This document shows, in pieces, positions 9,338-32,522 of a DNA stretch of 64,000 nucleotides (positions are counted from its first letter, which is position 1; each line of letters opens with the position of its first letter). Below the pieces are notes generated by a model, which was given only the letters and a program-made list of their open reading frames with translations, was not told the DNA's origin and did not search any database. This DNA is from a virus. Made by a program: the position numbers and the translations under genes. The stretch spans positions 1 to 64,000 of IMG/VR virus record IMGVR_UViG_3300042878_001565; one strand, written 5' to 3'.

Positions 9338-9368
9338 AGCCGCATCTTAATTGGTGCGGCTTTATCTT
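9338..9368 (+). terminator. Probable rho-independent terminator
   Basis: A 7-bp GC-rich stem AGCCGCA / TGCGGCT with a 10-base loop is followed by TTATCTT. It lies 9 bases after the stop of the zinc-ribbon gene and just before the helicase ATG. The T tract is interrupted, so termination may be partial, allowing some read-through into the helicase gene. Confidence 0.65.
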
Positions 9369-9374
9369 AAATCT

Positions 9375-11544: not shown

Positions 11545-11752
11545 TTGGACTGGTTTTAGTGAAGAAACAAAAGCAATCAAAGAAGTAAATCTGGAGATTG
11601 AAAGATTCCAGAAAAAGATGGACGCATTTAAATTAAGAATGGCAAAGGAACTTCTTGAAAAACGTCCATCATATACAATAAAAGAACGCGGTGCAATCAA
11701 ACGTGCAGCATTAGATTTAAGAGAGTCCTTATTATTAATAACAAAATTATGA
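11537..11752 (+). CDS. Small helical hypothetical protein, 71 aa
   Basis: The ATG overlaps the previous stop by 8 bases, and the stop overlaps the next ATG (ATGA). It encodes an almost wholly helical, basic, charged peptide (EVNLEIERFQKKMDAFKLRM; IKRAALDLRESLLLITK). No family is recognised. The overlaps on both sides support it as a real gene. Confidence 0.6.
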   Translation: MSSWTGFSEETKAIKEVNLEIERFQKKMDAFKLRMAKELLEKRPSYTIKERGAIKRAALDLRESLLLITKL

Positions 11753-11970
11753 GCAAGTATAAAATTGACAGAGCAAATAGCAGAGATGACTATGATAACA
11801 TGTGTTTCCAACCATCTGATGGTGCATTATATGACAAAGAAATAGCATTAAGTGTTCTTGAGAATAGATGTGGTGGAAGTATGCAAAATGCAAAAACTGG
11901 AGCAGGATTTATGGTAAGTTATAACCGAAATGAAAATGATTGGTTACGTAAAAAATTAAAAATCAAGTGA
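11749..11970 (+). CDS. Hypothetical protein, 73 aa
   Basis: The start overlaps the previous stop as ATGA and the stop TGA overlaps the next ATG as TGATG. The sequence is hydrophilic, with two cysteines (Cys19, Cys40) and a basic end (WLRKKLKIK). Nothing recognisable. It is supported mainly by its exact overlaps on both sides. Confidence 0.6.
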   Translation: MSKYKIDRANSRDDYDNMCFQPSDGALYDKEIALSVLENRCGGSMQNAKTGAGFMVSYNRNENDWLRKKLKIK

Positions 11971-13956: not shown

Positions 13957-14505
13957 ATGTTTAATCTTGAAGATGAATTAAAAAAAGAAACACAAAAAAG
14001 TTATATGTTTCTTTGGCCTTTGTTGAACTTACCAACAAATATAAAACCTATCAACACGTATTTAGGTTTTAAAGATGCAAACACAGACAAGCCTTTGATA
14101 ATTGGAATGTTCCACAAAGATTTGTTTAATTACAAACAACAGAAAAGAATTCTAGTGCAAAATAAAAATTACCAAGTCTATTTTATAGATGAAGGTTTTG
14201 AATATTTTGTTTTTGAATTAAAAGACTATAAACATGATTACGCGTTAATCATTAATGGAATGTATTCTGATGTCAGTCAACGTACTAAAAATAGAATCAT
14301 TGGTTCTTCTGTACATAAAATGACTGGACTAGCATTATATCCAGATGATATACGAAATGAAATCGCAGATCTTTTTAATGTAAAAGAAGGACCAAAAGAA
14401 ATTCTTGGTCCTCCTAATTTTGAAACTGAACTTATATCAGCGTCTGAACGCATGATTAAATTATTCAAAGGATGCTTTATTAAAACTTGCGAAATTCTTG
14501 TTTAA
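13957..14505 (+). CDS. Hypothetical protein, 182 aa, last gene of the + block
   Basis: The ATG lies 6 bases after the 49-aa gene. The protein is alpha/beta with aromatic-rich strands (YMFLWPLLNLP; VYFIDEGFEYFVFELKDY). I do not recognise it. Its 3' end overlaps the 3' end of the convergent 2024-aa gene by 26 bases (14480-14505), so there is no room for a terminator between the two convergent transcription blocks. Confidence 0.7.
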   Translation: MFNLEDELKKETQKSYMFLWPLLNLPTNIKPINTYLGFKDANTDKPLIIGMFHKDLFNYKQQKRILVQNKNYQVYFIDEGFEYFVFELKDYKHDYALIINGMYSDVSQRTKNRIIGSSVHKMTGLALYPDDIRNEIADLFNVKEGPKEILGPPNFETELISASERMIKLFKGCFIKTCEILV

Positions 14506-17500
14506 GTCCGTATGCCGCGTCTATCATTTTGCCATCAAACCCTTCGTATTTTAAATATAAATTAAAAAGTTTACTACGACCTGATTGTTGCCAACGTAAT
14601 GGACCGGCATCTTTTTCATAAACTTCACCTTCTAAAGCAATGTCAAATCCGTTAAGTATATCACTTAATGGATTTGCTGTTGAAAAAACACCTTTCATCA
14701 TAGACATATTAACACCTTGGTTCATCATAGGCATTGGATAAAAAGCACTTGTTTCTTTTCTTACACCAACAATTGTTCGTAAAAGTTGTATTTTAAAAAA
14801 ATTAGTAGCATCAAACTCACGCCCACTTGCATCGGTATATTGTTCATCTACAATAGGACCTGTAATATCTGTAATAAATTTAGGTGCTTGCGGAACACTT
14901 GTTGATGCAGCCATCCATTTAAACATCCCTTCTTTTTCTTCATCAAAAAGAAAAGCTTTAGATTCATCATCATCATCGTTGTTGAGTTTAAATCTCATGT
15001 TTTTTTGAACAAGATACAATGCAATTTCAATTGAAATACCAATAGCAATCTTTAGAAGCCCTGTATAGTTTTCATACGATAAATGCTTACCTCTTGTTCT
15101 AATAAGTTCTCCAACGGACTCTAACAGTGCAACATAAGAACCTAATTCTCTTGTACCAGATGCAACATTATTTCTTGGTGTAAATCGAACGCCTACTGCT
15201 ACTTTTTTTCCTAAAATTTCTTTATGTTTAAATTTAACTTTACCGTATGTAATTCTATCTCTTAATAAGTTTGGAAAAAATTTAATTAAAAATAATCCCA
15301 TTTTTCCCATAAGATTCCTATAAATATCAGGAGCATTCAAATCATTTGCTGCACCAATAGTTTTGGTTAAAGTATTTTGATGAAGATCTATTAACTGATT
15401 TAATTTAGAACCAAGTATGATTTTGTTATCATCCGAATAAGAAATAGAATATTCAACTGGAACATTTGGCATTGTTACAACACGCCCTTGAGCATCTAAC
15501 TGTATTGCTTTAAACAAAGTAGTTTGTTTACCATTTAATTCAAACTTATTATGATTTAAAATTGCAAAAAATTGATGCAACGGAACCATGTCACCAAGAT
15601 ATTTTCTTATAGCATATCGTTGATTACCTTTAAAAATAGACTGCATAAATGTTGTACCTCCGTTATGACCTGCACGTTTTTTAGCAAAGTCTGGAATAGC
15701 ATCCATAACTGTTATCAATTGTATAATTGGATCTTTTTGTTTTTTAGTCCATGATTCTGATACAATTTTATTAGAAGCAGCCATAGCCATTCTTTTTGTA
15801 ACACGTAAATCATTTGGATTTAAAACTTTACCTTCTGCCGATGTTGCCGCTAACATAATTTCACCACTGGCGTAGTTTTTTACACCACTATACACATTAT
15901 AACTAAAGAATCGTTTACTTAATGCTTTACTTGTAAATTGCGTAATTCGCAATGCATAAGTACCATATCTACCATCAAAACCATCAGGCATTACAACTTG
16001 AACACCATCAATATGTTTATCAATCATTTTATTAATATTCTTCAATCGACCACTTTCAGCAGCTGAAAGTGTAGGTTTAGCCATATTTAATGTTTCAAAT
16101 GATTGTTTTAATTTAATAAGATCTGGATCAGCACCAAGATTTTTAATTGTATCCTGTAACATTTGTACAACAGGGTTAATATCACGAGCAACTTTATATG
16201 TTTCAACTGAATGCAACCATCTACCCATAATAGAAACAATATTTCTACTTTGTTCAGCTAAAGGCATTTCATAATTACCAGTAATCGGTCTGGTCATTGT
16301 GTTTGCTAATGCATTTGAATCATATCCTACAGAAGCTTTACGATATTGATCACTATCAAAATCATCAGTATTGCTTTTACTAAAAGCTCTTATTATACCT
16401 AGACGCTTTCTTTCAAAAAATCCTTTTGTAGTAACATTTTCTATAGTTCCATGAATTTTTTCTTTAGGAAAAGCAAGTCCGTTTGTTTGTGATGAATCTA
16501 ATCCAATTTGATTATCCAAGTATGTATTTTTTAAGTACATCAATGCATCAAATAATTCTGGTTTAGAACGTAACATTTCTTGATATTCATCATTAATAAA
16601 GTTAGTTCCTATTGCACCTTCATTAACAGTCTTTGGTAACCATTGTCCTTTTGAATCTTTATTTGCAAGAATCAATTGACCATTTTGAAGTTCATCTCTT
16701 TCAATTTCAGGTGTAACATAATCGCTTTTTACAATCTTTGATTTATATGCTTTATTTGGAACACGTGGTTCACCATTTACTTCCAATGTACCATTAGGAA
16801 ATAAATCATGATTCATAATTTTAGTGTTGTAATACTTATCTACATCGTAAGGTCCTGAAAAATTCCATACTGTAGATTTTGTCCATATACTAACAACACC
16901 TTTTGGAACTTGATACCCAATTGCTGGATCTAATGCATAAACAACTTTTTCATCAGCAAAATGATTTGCTTCAAACCATGTTTTAAATTCAGGTGATAAC
17001 TCTTTTAATTCATCGATTAAATCTAAATCAGATAACAATATATCAACCATGTCTTCTGATAAAACAGGATTGTTATACAAGTCACTATGCTTATATGTTT
17101 TTTTTACAGCATTGTAAACAGCATCATAAACATCAGAATTTTTATACATGAAATCAAACCACATATTTTTATAATCTTCTGTGCTTCTTGAATATGACAT
17201 TTCACGTAAATCATTGTCAATTTGATCAACTTCAAGTAAGTCTTCATCATTAACCTCAAGTCCTTGAAGTTTAGTGCGTAGAATTAATTTAAAAGCTTCC
17301 AGTCTTAATTTTTCATGAGGTTTAAGATTTTTTCTATTACTTAACCTAACATAATCTAAATACTGATGCTTACTTAAACCACTTTTAGTAATAAACAATT
17401 TTTTACCATCTTGAATTTGTTTATTCAAGTCAGTTATTTTTTGTTGTTCCTCTAATGATAAACGTGTACCTTCATAAATACCTGATTCATTTACAGTTGG

Positions 17501-20500
17501 TTTAACTATATTTGAAACTTCTTCAAACAATATAGTTGAATCAATAATACCTTTAAGGGCTGCAATTTTAGTATTTGTTTGATCAAGTTTTTCTAATAGT
17601 TCTTTACGTCTATCCAATTTTGCTTTTCGTAATTCATAATAATTAGAATTAACTTCAACCTGTGTATTTTGACTCAACCAAGTATTCATTTCATACTCGT
17701 ACTCTAAACTTCCTTTTGTATATTTAGTCAAAATTTGTGCTTCAAACGCAGCAAATACACCTTCAAATTTACCTGGAACTTCTTCATAGTCATGAAAATC
17801 TTTTGTCAACTTATCATAGTTGGTTAACAATTCAGCTATTTGTAAATCATCGCCTGTTTTTAATTGACCTGTTCTATCAAATTTATTTTTAAGTTGTTTT
17901 AAATCAAACCAAAGTCGTGAAGATTCTGTTTGATAATCACCATCAGTAATATTTTCTGAATAATCTCTATTCAAAGCATTCATTTCTGTGTAAATATCGT
18001 CAATCAATCTACGTGCTTTTCTTCCTATAGGTGTACGCATTAAATAATCGTGCTGGTAATATTCAGCAGTATTATCACGATGCATATAATCAGATTCAAA
18101 TTGAGCTTTTGCATCAATAGCATCTAACCATAAATCATAATTGCTACCATCAGGAATTGCAACATAATTACTACGTGCAAGATCAATAGCAACATCTAAT
18201 TCTTTTATTTTAACACGATGGTTTCGAAAATTACTCATAAAAGCATACTCTTCTTTTATTTCTAACTTTCCATCTGCACCTTCAACAGCGTATGTATCTA
18301 CATGACTAATTGCTTTTCCAAGACCAGCTTCTCCAAAAATATTATTACCAAACGATGTACCTTTTAACGCATCATTTAAACCATCTAACAGAGTTGCTTC
18401 TTTTGCATTTACATTACCTGCAATTGTATTAAAATGTTGATTAATATATTTAGCAAAACCACTTGTTATAATATCATCAGACGTAATAAAACCATACATA
18501 GCATTGCTTAAACCTTTAGCATCGCCTAAAAAGTTAGCACTTGTAAGTTTAACTTTATCTTTTGTAATTCTTTCACCTTTAGCTATATTAAGTCGAAGAA
18601 CCATGTGTCTTCGTTGTTCATCATAAGTTAAAGGTTCTTTGTTTTTAACACGAGCATCTAATATATTAAATTCATATTCTTCAGCAAGAGTTACACCGTA
18701 GTAATCAGCATATACCAATTCGTATTCAGCCCATAATCCTTTGTCTTGTAGTTTTTGTAACTTATCTAAATAAGCTTCTTCAATAGGTTTGTGAACTTCT
18801 ACAAGATGATCATGAAAAGCATCAATAGATAATTCTGTAACCTTACTACTTACACGTTGCTGTAATTGTTCTATTTTAGTTTTAATTTTTGAAAACTTTT
18901 CATATACAGGGTTATCTTTTTTAACATGATAATTAAAATAACCGGTTTTAGAATCATCTAATTTGTTAAAATAATCATTCCAGTTATTAGCATAAAGCCA
19001 CATTGAATACAATGTTTCAATATCTTCTTTTGAATCCAAAGTTACATTGTCCATTGTATCAAACTTTTCAGAAAGTTTGTCAAAAAGAATTCCTGTATTT
19101 ACAACTACCGATATAAATTGTTTTAATTTATTATGGAATTGTTCCATGTCTTGAGTAACATCAGCTTCATCTTTAATTTTAACTAAAGACTTAACAGGCT
19201 TTCTTTTATTGAACGTAGTTAATTCTTCTACATCTTTTCTTAACTGCTGTATAATTCCTTGATTATATTCATCGGAAATTTCACCAGCAATCCATTTAAA
19301 GACATCGTTTTCTTTTGTTAAATTACCAACTTGTTTTTTTAGAACTTCGTAAAATTCATTTATAGTCTGTTCTGTTTCTTCAACAGAAACAGCAGCCATA
19401 ATTTTTACTTCATCCTCATACATCTTACCAAACATTGCAACATCATCCATGTCAATGAAATCTCTATCTAAAAGAAATTCTTCACCTGCATTGATCATAT
19501 CAGCAATATCTGCTATCGTAGTGTTCGGATTAAGTTTTGAAATGTTAATTTTTTTACCAAACAACTTTCTTAAAAATTGTTTAATTTGAAAAAACAATTC
19601 TTTAAAAAACCCATCTTTTTGTAGATCAGCTTGGTTAGCGTGCGCATATTGTAATGCATACACTAATGCTTCTTCTTTATACTCATCTGATTCTTTTTCA
19701 AATTCAGATGAGTACATTGTATCCAGGTGTTTTTCAATTTCAGAAAATTCTGGCGATGCTTTTAATTTATCATATAGTTCATTAAATAAATCTCGATTTG
19801 AATTAAAGATTGATTTAATAATTGGATGACCAAACTCATGAACAACTGTACTAGCATTAAAGCGTTCTTGTATTAAAAAGATTTTTCCATTTTTGAAATA
19901 ACCCGTAGTTGTTTTTTGGTTTGGATATTCTTTATCAAAATCTTCTTCAGATATAATTTCAAAATCAACACCTAATTGGTTTGATAATTTTGAAAGTATC
20001 AACATTGCTTTTTGATTGTTGGTTATTTTAACCAAGTCCTTCACTTTAGAAACAGCTCGTGACATTTCAAAAGGTTCTGCTTCTGCATAGTAATCTTCTT
20101 CTATCGTTTCAAGATTGTCGTAATCACGCGTTGTAAGCTTTTGAAAAACTACCTCTGGACTTCTGACTTCACCATGTTGTTCTAATACATCACGTAAAGC
20201 TTCTTCACGACCTACAACCGCAGCAACTTCGTTAAACTTCTGCAAGTCTTCTTCTGATAAATCCAATTTGTTTTCGTCATACGTTTCAAGAACTTTATTC
20301 GAAACAACATCGCCTGTGTTTGGAGATGATTGCCAAGAACGAGTATTACCCAAAACGGTATTGCCACCATCTTGGGTACCTCTATCAACATTTAATTGAG
20401 ATGTTTCTAAACCTAAATCTTTTGCAGTTGGATACTCATCCGTACTGTTTTCTTCCATCCATATCCCAATTTTTGCTGCAAGGATTGAAGGATTAATGTT

Positions 20501-20554
20501 AACTTCTTCTTGAAGCTTTATAAAATCCGGATGTGATTTATTTATACAACTCAT
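14480..20554 (-). CDS. Giant virion protein with zincin-like domain, 2024 aa
   Basis: This is the third and last of the giant late genes; its ATG immediately follows the stop of the 3988-aa gene. HEFGH at residues 239-243 is a zinc-metalloprotease (zincin) motif, with a candidate third ligand in YKEEALVYALQ about 55 residues later, followed by an amphipathic segment (FFQIKQFLRKLFG). Residues about 320-1000 are long charged helices. A hydrophobic segment near 1826-1848 (LLKIAIGISIEIALYLV) could contact a membrane. By comparison with crAss-like phages, the giant proteins next to the RNA polymerase are virion cargo ejected into the host. Membrane passage or processing by the zincin is inference. 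Confidence 0.8.
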   Translation of the reverse strand: MSCINKSHPDFIKLQEEVNINPSILAAKIGIWMEENSTDEYPTAKDLGLETSQLNVDRGTQDGGNTVLGNTRSWQSSPNTGDVVSNKVLETYDENKLDLSEEDLQKFNEVAAVVGREEALRDVLEQHGEVRSPEVVFQKLTTRDYDNLETIEEDYYAEAEPFEMSRAVSKVKDLVKITNNQKAMLILSKLSNQLGVDFEIISEEDFDKEYPNQKTTTGYFKNGKIFLIQERFNASTVVHEFGHPIIKSIFNSNRDLFNELYDKLKASPEFSEIEKHLDTMYSSEFEKESDEYKEEALVYALQYAHANQADLQKDGFFKELFFQIKQFLRKLFGKKINISKLNPNTTIADIADMINAGEEFLLDRDFIDMDDVAMFGKMYEDEVKIMAAVSVEETEQTINEFYEVLKKQVGNLTKENDVFKWIAGEISDEYNQGIIQQLRKDVEELTTFNKRKPVKSLVKIKDEADVTQDMEQFHNKLKQFISVVVNTGILFDKLSEKFDTMDNVTLDSKEDIETLYSMWLYANNWNDYFNKLDDSKTGYFNYHVKKDNPVYEKFSKIKTKIEQLQQRVSSKVTELSIDAFHDHLVEVHKPIEEAYLDKLQKLQDKGLWAEYELVYADYYGVTLAEEYEFNILDARVKNKEPLTYDEQRRHMVLRLNIAKGERITKDKVKLTSANFLGDAKGLSNAMYGFITSDDIITSGFAKYINQHFNTIAGNVNAKEATLLDGLNDALKGTSFGNNIFGEAGLGKAISHVDTYAVEGADGKLEIKEEYAFMSNFRNHRVKIKELDVAIDLARSNYVAIPDGSNYDLWLDAIDAKAQFESDYMHRDNTAEYYQHDYLMRTPIGRKARRLIDDIYTEMNALNRDYSENITDGDYQTESSRLWFDLKQLKNKFDRTGQLKTGDDLQIAELLTNYDKLTKDFHDYEEVPGKFEGVFAAFEAQILTKYTKGSLEYEYEMNTWLSQNTQVEVNSNYYELRKAKLDRRKELLEKLDQTNTKIAALKGIIDSTILFEEVSNIVKPTVNESGIYEGTRLSLEEQQKITDLNKQIQDGKKLFITKSGLSKHQYLDYVRLSNRKNLKPHEKLRLEAFKLILRTKLQGLEVNDEDLLEVDQIDNDLREMSYSRSTEDYKNMWFDFMYKNSDVYDAVYNAVKKTYKHSDLYNNPVLSEDMVDILLSDLDLIDELKELSPEFKTWFEANHFADEKVVYALDPAIGYQVPKGVVSIWTKSTVWNFSGPYDVDKYYNTKIMNHDLFPNGTLEVNGEPRVPNKAYKSKIVKSDYVTPEIERDELQNGQLILANKDSKGQWLPKTVNEGAIGTNFINDEYQEMLRSKPELFDALMYLKNTYLDNQIGLDSSQTNGLAFPKEKIHGTIENVTTKGFFERKRLGIIRAFSKSNTDDFDSDQYRKASVGYDSNALANTMTRPITGNYEMPLAEQSRNIVSIMGRWLHSVETYKVARDINPVVQMLQDTIKNLGADPDLIKLKQSFETLNMAKPTLSAAESGRLKNINKMIDKHIDGVQVVMPDGFDGRYGTYALRITQFTSKALSKRFFSYNVYSGVKNYASGEIMLAATSAEGKVLNPNDLRVTKRMAMAASNKIVSESWTKKQKDPIIQLITVMDAIPDFAKKRAGHNGGTTFMQSIFKGNQRYAIRKYLGDMVPLHQFFAILNHNKFELNGKQTTLFKAIQLDAQGRVVTMPNVPVEYSISYSDDNKIILGSKLNQLIDLHQNTLTKTIGAANDLNAPDIYRNLMGKMGLFLIKFFPNLLRDRITYGKVKFKHKEILGKKVAVGVRFTPRNNVASGTRELGSYVALLESVGELIRTRGKHLSYENYTGLLKIAIGISIEIALYLVQKNMRFKLNNDDDDESKAFLFDEEKEGMFKWMAASTSVPQAPKFITDITGPIVDEQYTDASGREFDATNFFKIQLLRTIVGVRKETSAFYPMPMMNQGVNMSMMKGVFSTANPLSDILNGFDIALEGEVYEKDAGPLRWQQSGRSKLFNLYLKYEGFDGKMIDAAYGLKQEFRKF

Positions 20555-23500
20555 TTAACATTCTTTTATATCGTTAATTACTCGTTTCATTTCTTTCAAA
20601 GGTAATACTTTAAATTCTTCTAATGGAATGTTAGTGTTTAAATCAATGAATTCTTCAACTAATTTTTGAGCATTATCAGTTAAAGTTTTTGGTTTATCTG
20701 CTTTAACACCATTGATTCTTTCATCTAAAATAGATGCATGATTAAATGCTTCATTTTGAGAATTACTGTAACCAAGAACTGTTTTTGTTTCTTTAGCTTT
20801 CAATCTATCTATTGTGCTATTAATCCAGTCACGTCTTTCTTTTGCATACTCAAGACTAATTACGTTATCAAATTTATCTTTAAATACATCTTGACCATCC
20901 AACCATTCTTCATACGCCATTGAAGCTACATCAACACTTTTCATTTTAATTTGACCTTCTACATTAGAACCAGTAAAAGGATTGCCAAAATGTTTATTTT
21001 CACTTAAACCTTTAAATCCAAATTGCGCAGATGCAGCTTGTGCTTTTGACACACGCATTGTATATAAAATATCACCTTTGTTGTGGGCTTCTCTTAAATC
21101 TGCCATTTTCATAATTTTTAAAGTAGGCGATAAAATTTTTGGTTCATAAACTTTTTGAGTATTTACTTGTGTTATACTTTCAACATATTTTTTAGCAAAT
21201 GGTATTTCAACCTGCATTAAGTATTGTTCAATAAAAGAATCTGTAACAGAAGATCCAATATTAATAGCAGCTCTTTCAAAATCAGATAGTGCAATTGAAA
21301 ATCCATTTTTGTATGTAGGATTTTCAGCAAAATATTTTTTTGATTCTGCATCTACCATTTTAAATCCTTTTTCAGAAATATCTTTTTCAGACATTCCTTT
21401 AAATAAATTAAGGCCTGTTATGTGATAAATGTAGTTGTCAATTCCAATCTTACGTCCAGATTTAACACCAAGAGTAACATCGTACATTGGAGAACTAATA
21501 CCATCTAAACTTTTTACAACCTCATAGTATTTTCCTAAAGGAGAATAACGAACAACTTTTGTATATCCTTTTTCTTCAAGAAACTTTAAAGCCATTTCAT
21601 CAATACCATTTGCAGAACCTACATTAAATGTTTTAACACCAGCTTCAATTGCTTTTGTAATTTTAGGTTCGTAATTTTTTTTGAAATCAGCGGTAACTAT
21701 ATCAGTATATCCTTTCAAATCAGTTAATCCTTCGTATGCACTTTTAAACAATCCTGCACCAAAAATCCAAACGCTATCGGTGCTTTTATATTTATTATCA
21801 AAAGCTTTTTTGTTTGTTTGATTGATAACATCAATGTAGTTTCTTGTAGAAGAACGTGCAACATAATTAGGATTTGATTCAGAAGGAGTAGCAATTGCTT
21901 TAGTAGAATTGTTTGCCATTGACTCATCTTTAACCCAATGATTATCTTTTCTATTTTTAGATTCAGCAATTGACAATCCACCAGCCACAGCATTAATTGC
22001 TTTTGCAACTAATACAGGATGATCACCGTAGTTATTAAACCCAAAGTATTCTAACAATAATTTATTCCAACTTGAAACCGCTATATTTTTATTTGGTACA
22101 TCTAAAATTTGCATTGGCATTGCTAGTTTTTCACCAGACAATGCTATAATTTTTTCTTTTATTTTTGTAGCAGTATCTTTTTCATCAAATATTTCAGACA
22201 TATCAAACGGAGTCATCTCTGATGGATCAACCGCTAAAATGTTTTCAACTAATGTAATGTTATTATATGTTTGAACTGAATTCAAATACTCTTGTTCAAT
22301 TGACAATGACATTGTTTCTGGCTGTACATAATTATAACCTCTATTACGAAGTTTATAAACACTAACAGCCATATTGTTGAATGCATTGTAAAACTTACCA
22401 ACTACTCCACCAACTGCTTTAGCAATCTTTTTTTCTTTTTCATTTTTCTTTGCAATCTCATTTAACGATTGTGTTAAACCTGCTGATGAGAATGTTGAGT
22501 CGATAACATTTTTTACATTGTTAGTAGTAATAAGTTTTCCTAAATAATATTTAGCTGCAGTATTCATACCTGATTGCATAAATATCATGTGCTCAAATGC
22601 ATTTTTAGAAAAGAATTCTTTTACTGCTGGATCAGGAAAATTCTGAAGCTTGGTAAGATTTTCCAAATAAACTTTAGTCAAAATTGGATCTGCTTTTTCA
22701 GCCAAATAAAAATTTGATTTTCTTGTACCTTCGCTTTTATTTTCAGTGTCAAACTTCATATCTTGAATTAATGAAAATTCACTAAAAGCATCTGCATGTT
22801 TTGCTTTCATTGCTTTAAAAATACCAACTAACCCAACTTCTTTGTCGAATAACATCCCTGGTGTTTTTGTTCTATACAATGCTTCAAGTTTTAACAAGTC
22901 ATCCATCGGTAACTCATTTCCAAACTTTTCTTTTTTGTATGAATAGTAATAAAAGTTTTCACGAATTTGAGCATCAATTGCATCTAACTTATCTTGAATA
23001 GGTTTCATTTTAGCATCAACTGCATCAAGTTCTTTTTCTGTTGCACCTTCTAACTCTAAATTTTTTCTTTCAATTTCAATTTCTGACAAATCAGTTAATG
23101 CATCAAATCGACCATACTCATCTTGAATTTCGTCTTTAAGTAATTCTAATTCAACTTTGTATTTAACATACTCTACTGGTGAATTAATTGAATCAAATAA
23201 ATGCGATACATGACCATCTTGCAAAATCTCATTTTTAACTGCACCAAGGTTGTAATAAACTTTACCATTTGATCGATCAATCTTGTATGCAGTTGTTAAT
23301 TTATTTGCAGGATTAACACTAGAAGCTGGTTGAGCAATTTGATCTTCTAATCTTTTAAGTTCTTGTTGTAAGAATTTAAATGTTAGTGGAGCTCTTGTAG
23401 GTAATTCAGCTAAACCAACACCCATTTGAGGAATTATAAGTTTATTATATTTTCCTGTATTCCATTCTGCAATTGCTTTGTTTATATCTGCAGTAATAAT

Positions 23501-26500
23501 TTTTTTGTTTTTTTCTAGTTCAGCATCTGATTTATATGCTTCTTCATTACTTGCTGGTAATTTTTTAGTAGATATACCAATAGCATTTGATTCACCACGC
23601 ATTTCTTTTGCTTGACCGCCTAATCCTTTTCTTATATCATTATCTCCAAATAAATATAAAGTTGTAGGATTTGCTTTTAACTCACTTCTTACAATAATTT
23701 TATTTGTTTTTTCAACACTAGCAGATTGTGCAGTAGGTTTTACAGTAGATTCAACTTCTTTAACTAAATCAAACGTAGCATTGCTTTCTCCAACTCTACT
23801 AGCACTTGTATATGTGTCTGTTCTATATACTGAATTTTGGTACAAGAACCACATTAAATCGTTTTTAAAGGCGTTACGTAATACAATTGGAAGTATTCCT
23901 TTTTTATTACCGCCATTCAATGACAAGGCTAATCTATTAACAACAGGATTGTTTTTAATTTTGAAAAAATTCTTAAACATATTAATAACCAAATTGGTAT
24001 TGTTGTAAATACCAATTGGAGATGTTTCAAATTTAGTCCACCATTCTGCTGGTATAGCAGTATGACCACTTTTTAATTTCATGACATCTGCAATATTTTT
24101 TTCAGCATCTGTTATATTGCTAATCTTTGTCGTATCGTATTTAGAAACTTGTGAAAACTTTGTTACATCTGCAGACAATTCTTCTAGTGCAACATATTGT
24201 GCAAAGATTTCAATGTCATCTTTGTTCACTGTAGAAGAACCTATTCGTCCTTCAAGAAAGTTAGTTTCAAAAATAGAATTATTGGACGCTACATTGTTGA
24301 TACCAAAAAAGGAATGCTTTGCGTATCCAGCATCAAACAATTCTTTTTCATACTCTTTCTTTAAAATATCTAAAGCTTCTTCTCTAATTGCATCTGGTGA
24401 TAAAGATTTACCGATTGGATTATTTTCATTTAATTTTGAATACGTTCCTGATAATTCTTTTTTAATGGTATTATATCTAATCGTTAACGGATTAGAAGAA
24501 ATATAAATTGCATCATTAATTGGAACACCTGCCATAACCATAAACAAAAGGTTCGGAGTATTCTCTTTATTACCTTGGATGTTAAATACCCATGCATTTT
24601 TACCAACATCGACATAACCATTAATCAACTGTGAAATAATATCCGCTGTTAATTTTCCATCTTTAGCATAACGAGAACCAACTGATATTCTACCATCAAT
24701 TTCATTATGGTTTAATTTTAATGTGTATGCTTTAAAATTATTAATTCTTTCTAAAGCTTTTGCTTTTAAAGCACCGTTAGATTTTGGATCATTGTAAATT
24801 CTTATGTCATCATTAAATTTCTCCAAGTCTTCTCTTTTAGCTGTGTTTAATCTTGAATCAAACGTACTAAACATTGCAAAGAATGTAGATACAACAGCAG
24901 CAATACCCAAAGACTCCATACCAACAGAGTTCTCTTGATGTTTTTGCAAGTTATACATGTAATCCATTACTGTTGTACGTGATATTGAATCAGATTTATC
25001 AGCATGTATTTTTTCAAGTTTGTTGTATTTACCAGCAGTAATTTTTGTTTCCAAAGCGTTCGCTATTGGTAATACATCTCTTGTTGTATTCGGTGTAACC
25101 AAATCAACAAAATTATCTTTAGCTAAAATCTTTCTATTAAACAAATTAACCAGTTTATTCTCAAGTCCTTTTACAGAATGGCCAACTTTCTTACGTTCTA
25201 ATTCAGCACCAATTTCTTTTTGAGCTGCAATCTTTTCTTTAAGCGATGCTTTTTGTTTTTTGAAATTATCAAATTTCGCACTTAATTCTGTAGAAAGGGT
25301 TCCAACATATTGCAAAAATATTCCATCACGCAGTGTATTGATTGAATCTATTTGTGCATTTATTTTAGATATTTCTGTTTCAATAAGTTCTTTATATTCA
25401 TTTGCTGCAGCTTTACCTAGTTTAGTTCCAAGGTACGTTCCAGTTGATTTTAATTCTTTTAATTGATCGTTGTATTTTTTACGCTCTGGATACAATAAAT
25501 CTAATGCAGGTTGATACAACTCTGCTTTTTCAAATGCAACCGTTTGATCTTTAAATAATTTTTCAGACTCATCGTAAACTGCAGATAACTCTTTTTCTAA
25601 AGGTGTAATGTTTGATTCATAAAAGTCAGTGTACTCTGCAGCGTAACGATCATAAGCACCAGTATCTCTACCGTAGTAGTTATTCAATTCAGGTTTGCTG
25701 TTGATAATAGAAATACTTGGATACAAGAAGAACATTTTATCAATATCGTAATCCGCTCCTGATTTAGCCACAATCTCTGATGGTAAAATTACTTTTGCAC
25801 CAGAATATTCAGGTAAAAATTCAGCAACCGTAACCGAGTCTAAAGCATTAGGACCTTGTGTTGGGATACGAGTTCCAGGAAAGTTTAACATTGCTTTATG
25901 TTTTGCATTCCATTCAGGATCTTTAATCGATTCATTCAATCTTTTTAAAGATGCATCGTAATCCATAACGCCTTTTTTATCTAAAACACGAATAGGCTTT
26001 TTATCTGGATGATCTGCATATAATAATTTTTTGAAATCCCCCTGCAATGAAATTTTAACTTCCATTGCAAACGTCAATGAACCATCTTCATCACGACTTT
26101 CATAAAACTTTAATCCATTAGTTCCATTAGCGTCTGCTTCCATGTCTGAACTTTCATACATAGCACCAGACACTTGAACCAAAGCTTCACCATTAACTTT
26201 TATTTTACGAAGAGATGAATCAATTAAGGTAACCACAATTTCTTCGATCTTCTGACTGTTTAATGAATATGATAAATCCTCAACCAATCTACCAGAAGCA
26301 TCAGTTAAAAAAGCAACTTCATGTGGTAGATAATCATTCTTAATCATTTCACGTTTAATGTAATCTGCTAGTTTTGTACTATCTCCTTCATACGTTCCTG
26401 TAGTAGGATTGTATTGGTAATCAATATTCTCAAGCAAATCTTCTCTTACGTGATCTCTATACGTTGTTAATATGTCAGTGTACTCTTTATACCATCCATA

Positions 26501-29500
26501 ATTTTTAGATGCAGCAAGGCGTTCTTTTTCAGTTTTAATAGACTTCCATTTAGCAATTCTATCTGCATCACCTTTTAAATAATCCATTGGCACACCATTA
26601 TCAGCAATACCATGAAGAATCATTTTTTTCATTTGTGTTGGTAACACTACTTTTCCTTTATATCCTTCATCAATAAACACCTGATTTTTCAAATGTTTAA
26701 CTGAAATTATATTCGGAACAAATTTTAAATCAGCATCTACAGAACGATCTTTTTTATAAAACGTATCTGGTTTTTTAACAATTACTTTTTTACCATCAGC
26801 ATTAGTTTCTACAGCTACGCGTGACAATGTAGAAAGTTTGGAACCTGATTGCATAGTAGCATAATCAATTCCTTGTTCCATCATTGACTTGTGTAATCCT
26901 TCAAGTTTAGTTCCTTTAATTTCATTTGGAATCAATGGAGCTAATGAATACTTATGAAAAGCAGTAAGCCCTAAATTCATTGATTTAAACTTATCTGTTG
27001 TACTTAACGGTCCGTAGTATTGAAACTTTTTTACTGGAAACGTAGAACTCATATCAGTTTGCTCAATAGTTTCACCTTTAATAATTTTCTGATAAAGTTT
27101 TTCTTGACCTGCTGACCATTCACCACATGAAATATTTAACAGCCTGTATGTATCAAAAGTTATCCAACCTTGACCATCGGCTTCTTCCATGTTACTGTAT
27201 GTTTCTGCAGTTTCTTTACCAAGTTTTTTTTCAAGCTCTTCTAAATATGATGATGGTACTTTAGACTCATCTAAAATTGCAGTTTTTAAATCACCAGTAT
27301 ATTGATAATCACGCTCAATACCCAATTGTTTAGCGTAACCAAAATTATTAAATTGTGCATTATTGTTTACAAAATTTTTGAATGATTCATCTGATGCAAA
27401 TATTTTTCCAGTAGAAATCATACCGGCATTACGTTTGTGGAAATCACCACCCTCAATGTTGTATAACGCCAAATCACCTAAAAACAATGATGTGTAATTA
27501 GTATTTTGGATAAAGTTATTTACAATGTGTGCTCTAAAAATTCTAAGTTTTGTATCAGAAATTGATTCATTTTCTACAGCGGTACTTTTATATTTCTCAA
27601 TTAATTCATCTGGAAATACTGTATCTGATTTTAATTTATTTAATGTTTCAGCTTTTTTACTAAAGTATGACTTCAAATTAGATTCAATGTTCTTCTTTAA
27701 TCCAGGACTTAATTGTTTTCTGATGCTGAATGATTGCAGGTCGTCTATAGAAAGAGAACGAGCTAACTTCAACAAATCATTTTTGGTATCGACATCTAAA
27801 ATATCATCAAACAAAAAGAAGTTTTTACCACGTTCAAAATACTTAAAGTCAATTGCAAAGTTTTCAGGATCAATTAAAATCTCCTGTTCTAATTTTTCCA
27901 ATCGAACCATTCGAATTAACTCTGCTTCTAAATGACCAATCATTTCATTACTTAAAATAGAACCAGCGTATCCATCTGTAAAAATAGTATCAATGTCTTG
28001 TGCATTTACAATCAATTCTTTGGTTTTACCACCAACAATTGAATTGTTTCTCATTTGATTTGCAAGAACTGTTAATGAAGAAGATTTTGCTTCTGTTCTT
28101 GGTATCTCTTGAACACCATCTAATGTCAACAATACATCGGATAAAAATTTTGTTTTTTCATCAGAACCAATTGATGATATACCTTTATCTTCAGATGTCA
28201 TGTCTATCAATCTACCATCTTCGTCAACACGTTTTACAGTGTGTATTAATTTGGAACCAGATAAATTCTCAACTGAAATTCTAATGCCAGGGTTTCTTTT
28301 ACCACGTACCGTTGGATTAAAGTGATCTAATTGAAACATATCAACAAACCATTTAGAACCAGCAACAGAAGGATTTTCTAAATAATTAAATTTAGACATC
28401 CCTTGCATTGCAATTAATTCATCATAATGATTTGCTTTATTTAAAGCCTGCACCTCAACTGTAAGTGATGAGTTTAATACTTTTTCACTTGCCTTCTCAC
28501 CATACGCTGTCATCGACATAAACGATGTGCTATCGCTTGAATACATTGAGTGTAATTTGATTAAACTATTTATGAATCCAGCTTTTCCAATTTCGTCAAT
28601 TCTCACACCATCTTCATAGTAATAAAAATCTTTTGCTAAATCAGATAAACTTCTAATCCCTGTACCATTAATTGCATCTTGTTTTTTTATAAGAAAATCA
28701 ACAAAATATGGGTAATCACTAGCTTTAATTTTTAAATCATCAGAACCTTCTTTTAGTATTTGTTTAACAATTGGATCATCTGAAATATTAATTCCAAATA
28801 ATTTTAAAAACTCTACTGGTTCTGCGTATGCTCTTAATTTTGGCGTTGATGAAAACTGTGCTTTAGTTGCTTTTGGTAATTTAAGATACGCACTTTTTGA
28901 AATAGAAATTCCACCATTAACAGACTCATGCACTTCTTTTAAAAACTTTGAATGATTTTTATTTTCAAAAAAAGATTTAAGGTTTAATGTATATGGTGAA
29001 AATTTATTTTCGCCTTGTTCTATACGTTCACCAATAATTTCTAATAACGATGTGAAATTATCATTCCAATCATTTTTAATAAATGTTTCCGATGCTGCTG
29101 TTCTACCTGAATGCGAAGTAGTACGACTTTCTACAAAGTTTTCATCCTTTTCTTCATTTGTATATGTAACCGTTTTTTCAATAATTTGTTCTCGTAATAA
29201 TACATCCGCTTTATTAAGAGATTGCCAAAATGCTAACCATTGATTCTGTTCTTCAAAAGTTGAAGAAGGTGAACCAGGATTACCAAGTTTTGAAACAAGT
29301 TCTTTAATTTGAAAATCATCAATACTAGCTGCAAGTAATTTTTGATACATGTCGTCACGATCTAATGTATTAGTTAACAACTTTGCAGTTTTAGCAAGCA
29401 TTGTTTTAAATGGTGCAAGTTTTGCAAAACCTAGAGCATTAACTTCTAATGTACCTTTACCATTTTTAGAATAAGAACTGATGGTACTTAAAAGTTGTTT

Positions 29501-32500
29501 AGTTTGATCATCAACTAATTCTGAAATTGAAAATTCAGCACCAGTTCTTTCAAAAATAACACGTTCGTCATCTTCATATTTTTCTTTTTCGGTATTGACA
29601 TAACTGTACTCATTAATAAACAAAGATGCCATGTCACCATACGATTCTTGTTTGGTTAAAATTGTATCAATGTTTTCTAAATTTCCAAAGTTAGCAATGG
29701 CTTTATTTAAAGTATCAATAGCAAATTTTGCTGAAAGATTATTTGGTTCATCTTCTAATGTTAATTTGTGAATTGCAACCTTTTGTTGTAATCTTTTTTT
29801 AACAAAATCTAAACCCATTTGTGTTAAAACAGGATTATTTTGAATTCTAAAAATACCATACCCATTGTATTTATCAGCATAAGATTTTTTAAAATCAGCA
29901 ACGATTGCTTGAGCTTCTTCATATTCTAATTTATTCGTAATAGGATTAATTGAAGCTAAATGAGTCATAGCAAATATACCATTTTGCGAATTCTCATCTG
30001 AATTATCCATTGCATTTACACCTTCAGTAACAAATTCGGTAAACAATGCCTGCATTGAGTCCATTACTAAATGAGTTTCTTCTAATGAAAAATTAAGTTC
30101 TTTTTGTAATTCAGCTGATTGATATACAGCATGTGAATCTCTACTACTAAATTTAGAAACATCAATGTTACCTTCATACAAGTTATTAAACATTGCATTC
30201 GTTACACCTTGAACACGATTCAATGCTATTGCATCAGATAGACGCATATTACCAAATAACCCTTTTAAAAGATTAGATATTTTTTCAAAGAATTGTGATA
30301 CTCTTGTTGAAAGTTTATTTGAATACTTTCCTTTTGACATAGCAAACTTACGGAACTCTTCAGCTAAATATTCTTCAAGTTCTAATTCATTTGCATTTGC
30401 AAAAGCAAGTCTTTTTTCAACGCCTTTAACTGTTACATCAAAGTATCCAGGTTTGTTTTTTAATTCAGCATACATGTTATTTCTTTCTACCGCAGTAAGT
30501 ATTCCCATACTATATGCGTGAAATGATTCGTGATATAAATCTGTTTTGCTAGAACCCAAATACATATTAATTGAATTACCCACAAACTCTGCTAAAAAGT
30601 TTGGACCAAATTCATGAATTTCGTCTGAAAAATTTACCTTCAGTACACGCAATAATGGATTAGTTTTCATCCATGCATCTGCCCGCAATTCTTGTGCTTC
30701 AGAAACAGATTCTCTATTTTGAGATGCAAGTGATTGAAATAAACTTTTTCCTTTATAGTTTTCTTTTACCGTATCAAGAACATCTATGTTAGTCACAACG
30801 TCTTCAACTTGTTCAGTAAATGAAACGTATGGATCAGATGCTTTAAACTCTCCTTGATTGTTTAATTCATACATTGTACTACCAAGATCAATTACGTTAT
30901 CTAAAATTGTTGTAAGCTTTGTTTTAACAACGCCATCTTCAATACCAGTTATAACATGTAATTGAGAATCTATGTTTGATTTTGGTTTTAATCCAAAATT
31001 TATTGCAGGTGATTTAGAAATATAAAGCTGACCATTGTTGTAATACAACTGTTGTTCATCAGTTGTTTCTTCTAATGAATTAAAAATCTTTACATCTGTC
31101 ATATCACCTTTTGGTACAAAAGGAACACCTGTCCTATTGTAAACAAAATTTCGCAATGCTTCTTTAATGTCAGAAAAATTTTCTTCTTTTATTTCAAATA
31201 AAACATTTTGAATATAAACGTGTGGTAATTTTTTCTTACCGTTTTCTGGTAAAAGAAATTCTGTAAATACTTTATCTTTTGAACGCTGTATTAAACTTGA
31301 TATAAGAATATTTCTATCTACTGTGGACCATGCAGCATCTTCTTGATTTTCTTTTGTAGTTGCTACTTTTGGTTTAGTATTTACAATTAATTCATACAAA
31401 GCTTCAAACTGTTCATCAGATATAGAACTTAACAATTTACTAAAAACGCTTGTTGGCTTATTTGAACCCTCTGCTTTTAATTCTATCCAATATCTTTTAT
31501 CGCGTTGATTTACCGAAAAATTTAATTTAGCCAAGTTTGCTATGGCCTTTAATGGATTTCTTTTATTGATGTTATATTTCATGACACCATGATCACTATT
31601 CTTGTAATCAATATCTAAAAGAATTGTTTTTCCATCTTCTATCCTTTGTGCAATTCTTGCAATTGATTTTAAATAGTTATCAATTTTAGTTTGAACAATA
31701 CGAGTGGCTTCTTCTATAGAAACACCATTATTTTCTGCATAGATTGCAGGCAACAATTCAGTCTGTCTTTTAAAGTGATGCGGTTCTGTTTTAATTTTCA
31801 TTACAGGAGAACTTCCTGTTTCAGAAACATTACCAGCTTCATTGAATTTTACAATGTTTCCTTTTGCGTCAGTAAACAATAGAACTACGTCATTATCTTT
31901 TATACGAGCGTATTCAGAAACAACATCTGTTTTTGATAAAACATCTTGGCTTTTAAAAGCTCTTAATTTTAGATCAGATGTTGGTGAATTTAAAATAGAT
32001 AATTGAACACTCTGTCTGAATTTAGAGTTTCTTTTTTCTTCAACCGTAGAAGGAATTTCAGATAAATCTAAATTAAGATTGTATGTTTTGTTAAACTCTG
32101 AAGACATTGCATCAAATCCCTCTTGCATGTTAACAACTGGAGGAAGTTGACTAACCCCTCCAACCATTTTACCTATTTGATTAACAATATTTGGAAACTC
32201 TCCGTTTTCATTAACACTTGCATTAATTATTTCATCACGTAAAGCTTTAATGTCAGAAAATAAACTTTCATTTTTTTTCGTCATTGGTGCATTTAAGTGT
32301 GCATATAACATTTCAGGCGCAATAGTTAAATGCTGTAACACAATCTCTCTGGTCTTTTCTTTTGAAAAACCTAACTGTGGTTCAAAATCAGACAACGCTT
32401 TGTTAAAAAGCATTGTCATCATTTGTTTTGCAGTAACATTTCCGTCGTAAAAACTTGGAATCTCTTTCTTAAAATAAGCAGCAAAAAGATTAATTGAATT

Positions 32501-32521
32501 CGGAGTAATACAAATATTCAT
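20555..32521 (-). CDS. Giant virion RNA polymerase polyprotein, 3988 aa
   Basis: A single 12-kb frame. In order, a zincin-like HESFH lies at residues 664-668, with LEEYLAEEFRKFA about 60 residues on and an amphipathic FFEKISNLLKGLFG behind it. The RNA polymerase core is marked by RIPTQGPNALDS, FLPEYSGAKVILPSEIV and KSGADYDIDKMFF; the metal-binding D2257-Y-D2259-I-D2261 fits the DxDxD loop of crAss-like virion RNA polymerases (phi14:2 gp66 type, related to eukaryotic RNAi polymerases). At about 2930-3050 a macro-like/DUF7831-type domain has FGDNDIRKGLGGQAKEMRGE. At about 3590-3660 a SLOG domain has VGSANGIDEMA. At about 3820-3920 there is a DUF4326-like domain (HFGNPFTG). The known family is packaged in the tail and transcribes early genes. 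It is much longer than gp66. Confidence 0.88.
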   Translation of the reverse strand: MNICITPNSINLFAAYFKKEIPSFYDGNVTAKQMMTMLFNKALSDFEPQLGFSKEKTREIVLQHLTIAPEMLYAHLNAPMTKKNESLFSDIKALRDEIINASVNENGEFPNIVNQIGKMVGGVSQLPPVVNMQEGFDAMSSEFNKTYNLNLDLSEIPSTVEEKRNSKFRQSVQLSILNSPTSDLKLRAFKSQDVLSKTDVVSEYARIKDNDVVLLFTDAKGNIVKFNEAGNVSETGSSPVMKIKTEPHHFKRQTELLPAIYAENNGVSIEEATRIVQTKIDNYLKSIARIAQRIEDGKTILLDIDYKNSDHGVMKYNINKRNPLKAIANLAKLNFSVNQRDKRYWIELKAEGSNKPTSVFSKLLSSISDEQFEALYELIVNTKPKVATTKENQEDAAWSTVDRNILISSLIQRSKDKVFTEFLLPENGKKKLPHVYIQNVLFEIKEENFSDIKEALRNFVYNRTGVPFVPKGDMTDVKIFNSLEETTDEQQLYYNNGQLYISKSPAINFGLKPKSNIDSQLHVITGIEDGVVKTKLTTILDNVIDLGSTMYELNNQGEFKASDPYVSFTEQVEDVVTNIDVLDTVKENYKGKSLFQSLASQNRESVSEAQELRADAWMKTNPLLRVLKVNFSDEIHEFGPNFLAEFVGNSINMYLGSSKTDLYHESFHAYSMGILTAVERNNMYAELKNKPGYFDVTVKGVEKRLAFANANELELEEYLAEEFRKFAMSKGKYSNKLSTRVSQFFEKISNLLKGLFGNMRLSDAIALNRVQGVTNAMFNNLYEGNIDVSKFSSRDSHAVYQSAELQKELNFSLEETHLVMDSMQALFTEFVTEGVNAMDNSDENSQNGIFAMTHLASINPITNKLEYEEAQAIVADFKKSYADKYNGYGIFRIQNNPVLTQMGLDFVKKRLQQKVAIHKLTLEDEPNNLSAKFAIDTLNKAIANFGNLENIDTILTKQESYGDMASLFINEYSYVNTEKEKYEDDERVIFERTGAEFSISELVDDQTKQLLSTISSYSKNGKGTLEVNALGFAKLAPFKTMLAKTAKLLTNTLDRDDMYQKLLAASIDDFQIKELVSKLGNPGSPSSTFEEQNQWLAFWQSLNKADVLLREQIIEKTVTYTNEEKDENFVESRTTSHSGRTAASETFIKNDWNDNFTSLLEIIGERIEQGENKFSPYTLNLKSFFENKNHSKFLKEVHESVNGGISISKSAYLKLPKATKAQFSSTPKLRAYAEPVEFLKLFGINISDDPIVKQILKEGSDDLKIKASDYPYFVDFLIKKQDAINGTGIRSLSDLAKDFYYYEDGVRIDEIGKAGFINSLIKLHSMYSSDSTSFMSMTAYGEKASEKVLNSSLTVEVQALNKANHYDELIAMQGMSKFNYLENPSVAGSKWFVDMFQLDHFNPTVRGKRNPGIRISVENLSGSKLIHTVKRVDEDGRLIDMTSEDKGISSIGSDEKTKFLSDVLLTLDGVQEIPRTEAKSSSLTVLANQMRNNSIVGGKTKELIVNAQDIDTIFTDGYAGSILSNEMIGHLEAELIRMVRLEKLEQEILIDPENFAIDFKYFERGKNFFLFDDILDVDTKNDLLKLARSLSIDDLQSFSIRKQLSPGLKKNIESNLKSYFSKKAETLNKLKSDTVFPDELIEKYKSTAVENESISDTKLRIFRAHIVNNFIQNTNYTSLFLGDLALYNIEGGDFHKRNAGMISTGKIFASDESFKNFVNNNAQFNNFGYAKQLGIERDYQYTGDLKTAILDESKVPSSYLEELEKKLGKETAETYSNMEEADGQGWITFDTYRLLNISCGEWSAGQEKLYQKIIKGETIEQTDMSSTFPVKKFQYYGPLSTTDKFKSMNLGLTAFHKYSLAPLIPNEIKGTKLEGLHKSMMEQGIDYATMQSGSKLSTLSRVAVETNADGKKVIVKKPDTFYKKDRSVDADLKFVPNIISVKHLKNQVFIDEGYKGKVVLPTQMKKMILHGIADNGVPMDYLKGDADRIAKWKSIKTEKERLAASKNYGWYKEYTDILTTYRDHVREDLLENIDYQYNPTTGTYEGDSTKLADYIKREMIKNDYLPHEVAFLTDASGRLVEDLSYSLNSQKIEEIVVTLIDSSLRKIKVNGEALVQVSGAMYESSDMEADANGTNGLKFYESRDEDGSLTFAMEVKISLQGDFKKLLYADHPDKKPIRVLDKKGVMDYDASLKRLNESIKDPEWNAKHKAMLNFPGTRIPTQGPNALDSVTVAEFLPEYSGAKVILPSEIVAKSGADYDIDKMFFLYPSISIINSKPELNNYYGRDTGAYDRYAAEYTDFYESNITPLEKELSAVYDESEKLFKDQTVAFEKAELYQPALDLLYPERKKYNDQLKELKSTGTYLGTKLGKAAANEYKELIETEISKINAQIDSINTLRDGIFLQYVGTLSTELSAKFDNFKKQKASLKEKIAAQKEIGAELERKKVGHSVKGLENKLVNLFNRKILAKDNFVDLVTPNTTRDVLPIANALETKITAGKYNKLEKIHADKSDSISRTTVMDYMYNLQKHQENSVGMESLGIAAVVSTFFAMFSTFDSRLNTAKREDLEKFNDDIRIYNDPKSNGALKAKALERINNFKAYTLKLNHNEIDGRISVGSRYAKDGKLTADIISQLINGYVDVGKNAWVFNIQGNKENTPNLLFMVMAGVPINDAIYISSNPLTIRYNTIKKELSGTYSKLNENNPIGKSLSPDAIREEALDILKKEYEKELFDAGYAKHSFFGINNVASNNSIFETNFLEGRIGSSTVNKDDIEIFAQYVALEELSADVTKFSQVSKYDTTKISNITDAEKNIADVMKLKSGHTAIPAEWWTKFETSPIGIYNNTNLVINMFKNFFKIKNNPVVNRLALSLNGGNKKGILPIVLRNAFKNDLMWFLYQNSVYRTDTYTSASRVGESNATFDLVKEVESTVKPTAQSASVEKTNKIIVRSELKANPTTLYLFGDNDIRKGLGGQAKEMRGESNAIGISTKKLPASNEEAYKSDAELEKNKKIITADINKAIAEWNTGKYNKLIIPQMGVGLAELPTRAPLTFKFLQQELKRLEDQIAQPASSVNPANKLTTAYKIDRSNGKVYYNLGAVKNEILQDGHVSHLFDSINSPVEYVKYKVELELLKDEIQDEYGRFDALTDLSEIEIERKNLELEGATEKELDAVDAKMKPIQDKLDAIDAQIRENFYYYSYKKEKFGNELPMDDLLKLEALYRTKTPGMLFDKEVGLVGIFKAMKAKHADAFSEFSLIQDMKFDTENKSEGTRKSNFYLAEKADPILTKVYLENLTKLQNFPDPAVKEFFSKNAFEHMIFMQSGMNTAAKYYLGKLITTNNVKNVIDSTFSSAGLTQSLNEIAKKNEKEKKIAKAVGGVVGKFYNAFNNMAVSVYKLRNRGYNYVQPETMSLSIEQEYLNSVQTYNNITLVENILAVDPSEMTPFDMSEIFDEKDTATKIKEKIIALSGEKLAMPMQILDVPNKNIAVSSWNKLLLEYFGFNNYGDHPVLVAKAINAVAGGLSIAESKNRKDNHWVKDESMANNSTKAIATPSESNPNYVARSSTRNYIDVINQTNKKAFDNKYKSTDSVWIFGAGLFKSAYEGLTDLKGYTDIVTADFKKNYEPKITKAIEAGVKTFNVGSANGIDEMALKFLEEKGYTKVVRYSPLGKYYEVVKSLDGISSPMYDVTLGVKSGRKIGIDNYIYHITGLNLFKGMSEKDISEKGFKMVDAESKKYFAENPTYKNGFSIALSDFERAAINIGSSVTDSFIEQYLMQVEIPFAKKYVESITQVNTQKVYEPKILSPTLKIMKMADLREAHNKGDILYTMRVSKAQAASAQFGFKGLSENKHFGNPFTGSNVEGQIKMKSVDVASMAYEEWLDGQDVFKDKFDNVISLEYAKERRDWINSTIDRLKAKETKTVLGYSNSQNEAFNHASILDERINGVKADKPKTLTDNAQKLVEEFIDLNTNIPLEEFKVLPLKEMKRVINDIKEC

Positions 32522-32522
32522 A

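Follow-up and report, generated by a model that had tools for sequence, protein, structure and literature searches.

The window analysed here is a stretch of 64,000 nucleotides (positions 1 to 64,000) of the IMG/VR virus record IMGVR_UViG_3300042878_001565, which is 91,179 bases long. Its minus strand carries an open reading frame (ORF) of 3988 codons whose product is, by homology, a crAss-like virion RNA polymerase with an extended C-terminal tail. This tail is the subject of the present analysis. An earlier reading of the letters alone (the sequence-only reading) had placed three domains foreign to transcription there, of macro-like/DUF7831, SLOG and DUF4326 type, and had proposed that the ejected polymerase delivers them to the host. 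The polymerase and the tail features are the following:

20555..32521, minus: crAss-like virion RNA polymerase, 3988 aa, with extended C-terminal tail (ORF call and homology)
25736..25753, minus: catalytic DYDIDK motif, residues 2257-2262
23306..23756, minus: segment missing from the closest relative, the DUF7831 cassette with its linkers (gene nucleotides 8766-9216)
23363..23704, minus: DUF7831 (PF25176), putatively macro-like domain, residues 2940-3053 (Pfam and predicted structure)
21494..21907, minus: SLOG-like segment with VGSANGID motif, residues ~3539-3676 (motif and alpha/beta prediction; SLOG identity unproven)
20690..21139, minus: FGNPF segment, DUF4326-like, residues ~3795-3944 (profile resemblance; membership unproven)

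Residues 1591-2276 match g066 of the Cellulophaga phage phi14:2 (E=6e-20) and, more weakly, other crAss-like polymerases. The DxDID catalytic motif is present in 12/12 aligned polymerase cores, here as DYDIDK at residue 2257. The virion-type polymerase named by the sequence-only reading is thus borne out by homology, and its three peptides are real. Each occurs once in six frames and within this ORF: FGDNDIRKGLGGQAKEMRGE from nucleotide 23650 (residue 2958), VGSANGIDEMA from 21622 (residue 3634), and HFGNPFTG from 20992 (residue 3844). The modules do sit on the polymerase tail, as had been claimed, but the last ~1060 residues do not form a single array. About 460 residues of tail proper (~3075-3535) separate DUF7831 from the SLOG-like piece, and this stretch is common to L004, L005, and L054, at least from ~3190 onward (L labels denote viral loci; surveyed range L002-L208).

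Cassette exchange in the polymerase tail

Comparison with relatives shows that the C-terminal tail is a cassette region, in which domains are gained, lost, and exchanged with their linkers at several insertion points. The closest relative found, IMGVR_UViG_3300033984_000268, has a polymerase core 95.5% identical to that of the window. It aligns at gene nucleotides 1-8765 and 9217-11967, and the intervening net 150 residues, which hold DUF7831, are absent from it. L180 has a PNK in the place that DUF7831 and an AlkB-type domain occupy in L053, and the cores of these two loci share 95.7% identity; L197 and L199 carry an AlkB-type domain and an unnamed piece, respectively; and L184 and L174 differ by an exchanged or inserted piece of 134 residues in which an HEVKH motif stands. 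Further exchanges or insertions are found in the pairs L054/L133, L176/L186, and L181/L182. Cores in the exchange pairs are 70-100% identical, and the exchange points vary, falling ~666, 840, 944, and 1443 residues past the catalytic motif. Such variability among relatives argues against an array that is an inert element in all of them, the condition that the sequence-only reading had named as fatal to it.

The DUF7831 module also links polymerases that are otherwise distant. A pattern-based scan of viral contigs found 160 relatives of the domain, and among the best 80, which were kept, the 11 best matches (9 once near-identical tails are removed) all lie in crAss-like polymerase ORFs. The catalytic motif is found in 10/11 of these, and L062 is assigned by core homology. 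Their DUF7831 domains are 55-88% identical to the window copy (9/11 aligned), and their polymerase cores 22-52% identical (8/11 aligned), with only L054 above 39%. The cassette shares 91.4% DNA identity with L053 over 406 bases, there is no other DNA match to L053, and the L053 core is 30-39% identical to the window's. Synonymous divergence (dS) of the cassette to L053 is 0.21 versus 0.18 between the cores of the window and its close relative, and the ratio of nonsynonymous to synonymous divergence (dN/dS) of the cassette against L053 is 0.28. Because the two dS values are similar, the module appears to have moved between distant polymerases at about the time when the close relatives split. 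In L054, the DUF7831 module lies near the C-terminus, past SLOG-like and GNPF pieces.

The wider set comprises 113 polymerase tails, from this phage and 112 others, which 15 near-identical removals reduce to 98. Alignment A5 holds 64 of the 98 non-redundant tails, and the 63 besides this one were fetched by polymerase core alone. The expression for the catalytic motif is unmatched in L036 and L062; the latter nonetheless aligns to the core. A Pfam scan of the 64 tails (E 0.001) finds DUF7831 in 12, the window's included, AlkB-type domains in 4, NADAR and ART-PolyVal in 1 each, and helicase families in up to 4. By locus, the AlkB-type 2OG-FeII_Oxy_2 family is above its cut-off in L004 and L005 and just below it in L053. 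NADAR accompanies a sub-threshold DUF7831 in the tail of L046; ART-PolyVal, just below cut-off, occurs in a long fused ORF of L020, and DUF7831 in a long ORF of L021. An A1S_2505-type domain lies in the tail of L005, cpYpsA in those of L006 and L027, ASCH (just above cut-off) in L006, and a helicase in L056. PNK is found on the tails of L007 and L042 by Pfam and of L180 by a profile made for this analysis. A theme of NAD and ADP-ribose runs through other tails in the form of NADAR, ART-PolyVal, and A1S_2505-type domains. As to the polyvalent character that the sequence-only reading had invoked, one conflict-type domain is firm here, and the tails of L046, L005, and L042 carry several. QLSLF or QLNLF peptides are seen in the polymerase tails of L004, L005, L006, L033, and L055; they resemble the bacterial sliding-clamp-binding motif.

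This cassette behaviour is the strongest part of the case, and the SLOG label and the function of the modules are the weakest.

The tail domains

Assignment of residues 2940-3053 to DUF7831 is certain from the profile match (PF25176, E=1.9e-33, 115.2 bits versus a curated cut-off of 27), in agreement with the sequence-only reading, which put such a domain near 2930-3050. An alignment of 53 DUF7831 sequences, this copy included, has 11 invariant columns, and the AlphaFold2 model built from it reaches a predicted local distance difference test score (pLDDT) of 91.9. In a VIA-align comparison of the model, 11 of rows 1-12 (Z 7.4 to 6.8) are macrodomains, including the Thermus aquaticus DarG; the remaining row is 2fg1, a functionally uncharacterised protein from Bacteroides. 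The top row has Z 7.4, which is below 8, with a root-mean-square deviation of 3.5 over 119 residues. A macro-like fold is thus moderately supported by the predicted structure. Additionally, the A1S_2505-type domain is homologous to DUF7831 (Prob 92%, E 6e-7, 0/100 shuffles as high). The GLGGQA-type motif of this copy is the one conserved in stand-alone phage proteins, and the dN/dS of the cassette is 0.22-0.37 versus L052-L054; purifying selection acts on it.

The 53-sequence profile matches 11 GLGGQA-type tails strongly (E 1e-45 or better), 10/11 of which came from the DUF7831 search, so their number is uninformative on frequency. About 18 further tails match weakly, mostly near their C-termini, and an iterated profile, which may drift, matched 55/113 tails. 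A divergent DUF7831-like domain is seen at the extreme C-terminus of many polymerases (L138, L145, L159, L174, L186, and L202). It may be a macro-like domain that has degenerated or become structural, and part of this family may have a structural role. Relatives of DUF7831 are also seen on bacterial-genome contigs (L212-L221), several of them from Hymenobacter.

The SLOG-like segment is found again in 12/112 other polymerase tails, one of which runs off its contig; for the GNPF segment, the count is 6/112. Both counts take in near-identical tails. The profile of the SLOG-like segment has no match in reversed tails, used as a control. Its model is alpha/beta, mean pLDDT is 70-97 in the blocks that make up residues 1-140 (66.5 for the whole), and the best structural match (Z 5.2) is to Rossmann-type folds such as methyltransferases. 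No SLOG entry was recognised among the 50 structural-comparison rows listed, although one may still be present. The DprA-like phrog_768 matches the segment in 0/13 records; a general Pfam scan, NCBIfam, and PHROGs find nothing above cut-off on the segment alone; and comparison of its profile with true YAcAr domains gives Prob 1.3% over 12 columns, with 1/100 shuffles as high. Matches to phrog_768 in 3/64 tails are a separate matter, since the SLOG-like tails that were checked do not match phrog_768. The SLOG label has the motif and an alpha/beta prediction behind it, and the family identity is not established; the label denotes a resemblance for which the evidence is weak. A second recurrent piece (VAFVSVNG...ATKE...AGGTVI) is seen in the tails of L004, L007, L181, and L186 and may be a second SLOG-like module.

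For the FGNPF segment, comparison with a profile of six true DUF4326 domains gives Prob 18% over 66 columns, with 0/149 usable shuffles as high. The alignment pairs GNPF with GNPF and an HA helix with a CH helix. Two DUF4326 proteins are among 50 BFVD rows for the segment (E 0.32 and 0.97). Pfam, NCBIfam, and PHROGs find nothing above cut-off on the piece alone. The sole PF14216 match (record G006, E 0.0166) was dropped, as it is located outside the tail segment. The DUF4326 label thus has modest profile support as a resemblance, and membership in the family is not established.

Elsewhere in the tail, the middle piece alone gives nothing above cut-off in Pfam, NCBIfam, or PHROGs. The 3.5-kb region has no DNA match among 50,697 phage records, and solved-structure sequence searches with a 2402-aa piece and both domain profiles returned no convincing relative.

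Terminal cysteines of the three giant proteins

The polymerase is the middle member of a block of three giant proteins encoded on the minus strand:

14480-40049, minus: three-protein block, with junctions near 20546-20560 and 32510-32531
32523..40049, minus: upstream cargo-type protein, 2508 aa (sole cysteine at residue 2507)
33240-33638, minus: PNK-type AAA_33 domain of the 2508-aa protein, residues 2138-2270 (Pfam)
32510..32512, minus: N-terminal cysteine of the polymerase, residue 4
20558..20560, minus: C-terminal cysteine of the polymerase, residue 3988
14480..20554, minus: downstream cargo-type protein, 2024 aa (sole cysteine at residue 3)

Together the three proteins have 8520 residues and five cysteines, four of which stand at the two junctions (2507 of 2508; 4 and 3988 of 3988; 3 of 2024); the fifth, polymerase residue 1799, is away from them. 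The corresponding trio of phi14:2 has four cysteines, all junctional (1797 of 1797; 3 and 2179 of 2180; 3 of 1421). In crAss001, gp47, encoded on the opposite strand, has a single cysteine at residue 2339 of 2341, gp50 has cysteines at residues 5, 1334, and 2404 of 2412, and gp49 at residue 5.

The pattern is general among the non-redundant viral loci over which it was counted. Where a separate upstream ORF of at least 800 aa is present, a cysteine lies within the first 8 residues of the polymerase in 54/55 loci and within the last 10 residues of the upstream protein in 54/55, and the one junction that departs from this, in L163, belongs to a polymerase gene that is split. A further 19 complete N-termini lack such an upstream ORF in the locus, and 7/19 have the cysteine. 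For the other 12, upstream fusion is only partly shown: the L163 query, which is the front part of the split gene, matches controls too, hits to L197, L201, and L020 come from several of the other queries, and the remaining loci are hit by few or none. At the other end, complete polymerase C-termini have a cysteine in the last 8 residues in 86/95 cases versus 0.57 expected. Downstream proteins of at least 1000 aa that follow a cysteine-ended polymerase carry a cysteine at their start in 70/70 cases, and a terminal cysteine in 0/32 of their complete C-termini. Nine polymerase C-termini are without cysteine; eight of these, all with long tails, are fused within one ORF to a homologue of the downstream protein, versus 0/8 controls, and L137 is without such a fusion explanation. 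Fifty-six polymerases have both terminal cysteines, and 47 of them hold exactly these two in ~3200 residues on average, while 4/6 polymerases without either are entirely cysteine-free. The cassettes conform to this scarcity: DUF7831 copies on polymerases have no cysteine in 1275 residues (10 sequences), versus 21 in 5055 residues of the 43 others aligned.

The positions of the cysteines suggest that the ejected proteins are linked end to end, in place of a fusion of their genes. The link may be a disulfide that arises within the virion; alternatively, the cysteines could bind metal or act as a packaging tag. A nucleotide-level start or stop signal was judged unlikely as their source, as positions vary and gp47 is on the opposite strand. 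The tail and portal vertex of crAss001 virions are described as containing structural disulfides, in a paper of which the main text lacks the word cysteine and the part consulted here does not mention these residues. Searches of an open-licence library found no report of the terminal cysteines.

The PNK-type domain of the 2508-aa neighbour, a family also found on polymerase tails, suggests possible traffic of modules among the cargo proteins. HExxH zincin-like motifs were seen by eye as HESFH in the polymerase and as HEFGH in the downstream protein of 2024 aa, alongside the HEVKH of the exchanged L174 piece. Other genes of this phage encode a DNA polymerase, a Dda-like helicase, and tail fibres.

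Possible roles and known systems

Counter-defence is the likeliest, though inferred, role of the tail. In relatives, the polymerase is reported to be packed in the virion and ejected (PMC10172136, PMC7886860); its subunits are virion cargo thought to leave partly unfolded (PMC10172136). By analogy, the polymerase of this phage would be packed and ejected into the cell, and the tail would arrive along with it. Inside, its modules (the macro-like DUF7831 and the other two) would act by binding or degrading the ADP-ribose-type molecules or adducts that host defences produce; NAD-based defences would thereby be blunted, and the first steps of infection protected. We put even weight for and against this account, in which a traded cassette region on an ejected polymerase counters ADP-ribose-type defence molecules. 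The delivery of a nucleotide-sensing or counter-defence module, as the sequence-only reading had it, likewise stands as a proposal. Were this so, exchangeable weapons against NAD/ADP-ribose immunity would come in on the first viral enzyme that enters the cell, before any viral gene expression, and comparison of the tails of close relatives would yield a natural catalogue of counter-defence domains.

Several results pull the other way. Short tails, ending ~760-780 residues past the motif (L028, L030, and L031), match none of seven profiles. Helicase, PNK, AlkB-type, and protease-like modules are unrelated to ADP-ribose, and the region may accordingly have more than one function. For DUF7831 itself, VIA-align rows 13-20 are mixed, with designed hydrolases (Z 6.2-5.7), macrodomains (5.8-5.2), and FtsY (5.4), and models without a clear structural match can reach Z 7.4. 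Foldseek of the model against the PDB gives nothing significant (best E 0.024), and Pfam Macro (PF01661) matches in 0/8 records at E 10. The glycine-rich motif is apparently absent from the examined copies of the divergent C-terminal DUF7831-like domain. YAcAr (PF10686) matches the SLOG-like segment in 0/13 records, and DUF4326 (PF14216) is unmatched in the window's record and above cut-off in 0/7 records.

A stronger form of the counter-defence account is tentative, and we lean against it as a whole. It combines a dedicated, horizontally traded counter-defence magazine in the C-terminal region with a polymerase ejected in the middle of a chain of three, joined via terminal cysteines, in which the disulfide train would form in the virion and the reducing cytoplasm would separate it. 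The cysteine rule offers a model, open to direct testing, of the way in which giant proteins line up and pass through a phage tail.

Two further explanations are each improbable. In the first, the modules would control transcription by acting on the polymerase itself or on the RNA that it makes, for example by gating early transcription in response to a host ADP-ribose signal or by processing RNA that emerges NAD-capped or ADP-ribosylated. Every one of the closest DUF7831 copies lies in cis with a polymerase, a sensor use of some SLOG fusions has been proposed (PMC9503650), and RNA-repair-type PNK modules sit on polymerase tails as well (L007, L042, and L180). However, the same PNK family on the 2508-aa protein makes a polymerase location non-essential, the modules differ between polymerases whose cores are 95% identical, and small stand-alone DUF7831 phage proteins exist. 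In the second, which we rate equally low, the tail is a nucleic-acid repair kit that mends entry damage to phage DNA or RNA. Its members, also with little likelihood, would be an AlkB-type demethylase, PNK, NADAR, and DUF7831, the last acting on ADP-ribosylated bases or ADP-ribose 1''-phosphate. The 2OG-FeII_Oxy_2 domains of L004, L005, near-threshold L053, and 4/64 scanned tails fit this view, as do the PNK and NADAR domains and the reversal of guanine ADP-ribosylation by NADARs (PMC11125620), but it leaves the SLOG-like modules unexplained. Least probable is that the extra domains are inert and tune packing, ejection, or stability, in which case degenerate macro-like folds would be retained for shape alone: the divergent C-terminal copies without the glycine-rich motif agree with it, whereas the retained GLGGQA-type motif, purifying selection on the cassette, and gain or loss of DUF7831 between cores 95.5% identical do not.

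The RNA polymerase subunits of phi14:2 (g066) and crAss001 resemble the window's polymerase in their DxDxD motif and detectable sequence similarity, and these phages share the block of giant proteins with cysteines at protein ends. However, g066 has 2180 aa versus 3988 aa here, and the long accessory tail belongs to this phage. Stand-alone DUF7831 proteins of phages (phrog_2072) are members of the same family at ~37-50% identity among 60 of 92 records listed. They differ in that the domain is here a cassette within a polymerase, with the polymerase copies nearest to it and free of cysteine.

Macro, NADAR, SLOG, and DUF4326 domains of phages have been proposed to counter soluble ADP-ribose derivatives, and their fusions in phages and giant viruses represent the same proposed ADP-ribose-processing set as is considered here (PMC9503650). 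Unlike the present case, that set typically consists of stand-alone proteins, the term "crass" has 0 occurrences in PMC9503650, and in the part consulted only host RNA polymerase is mentioned. Searches of an open-licence library found no report of such a polymerase fusion.

N4-like virion RNA polymerases provide a parallel, as they are likewise ejected and fused to conflict-type domains, including metallopeptidase, ART, lysozyme, and PBECR (PMC5512222). However, they are of an unrelated single-subunit type and carry other domains, and the excerpted text of PMC5512222 does not describe recent cassette exchange. Thus, an ejected polymerase that carries conflict domains has a precedent, and the exchange of cassettes on the crAss-like polymerase is the new part.

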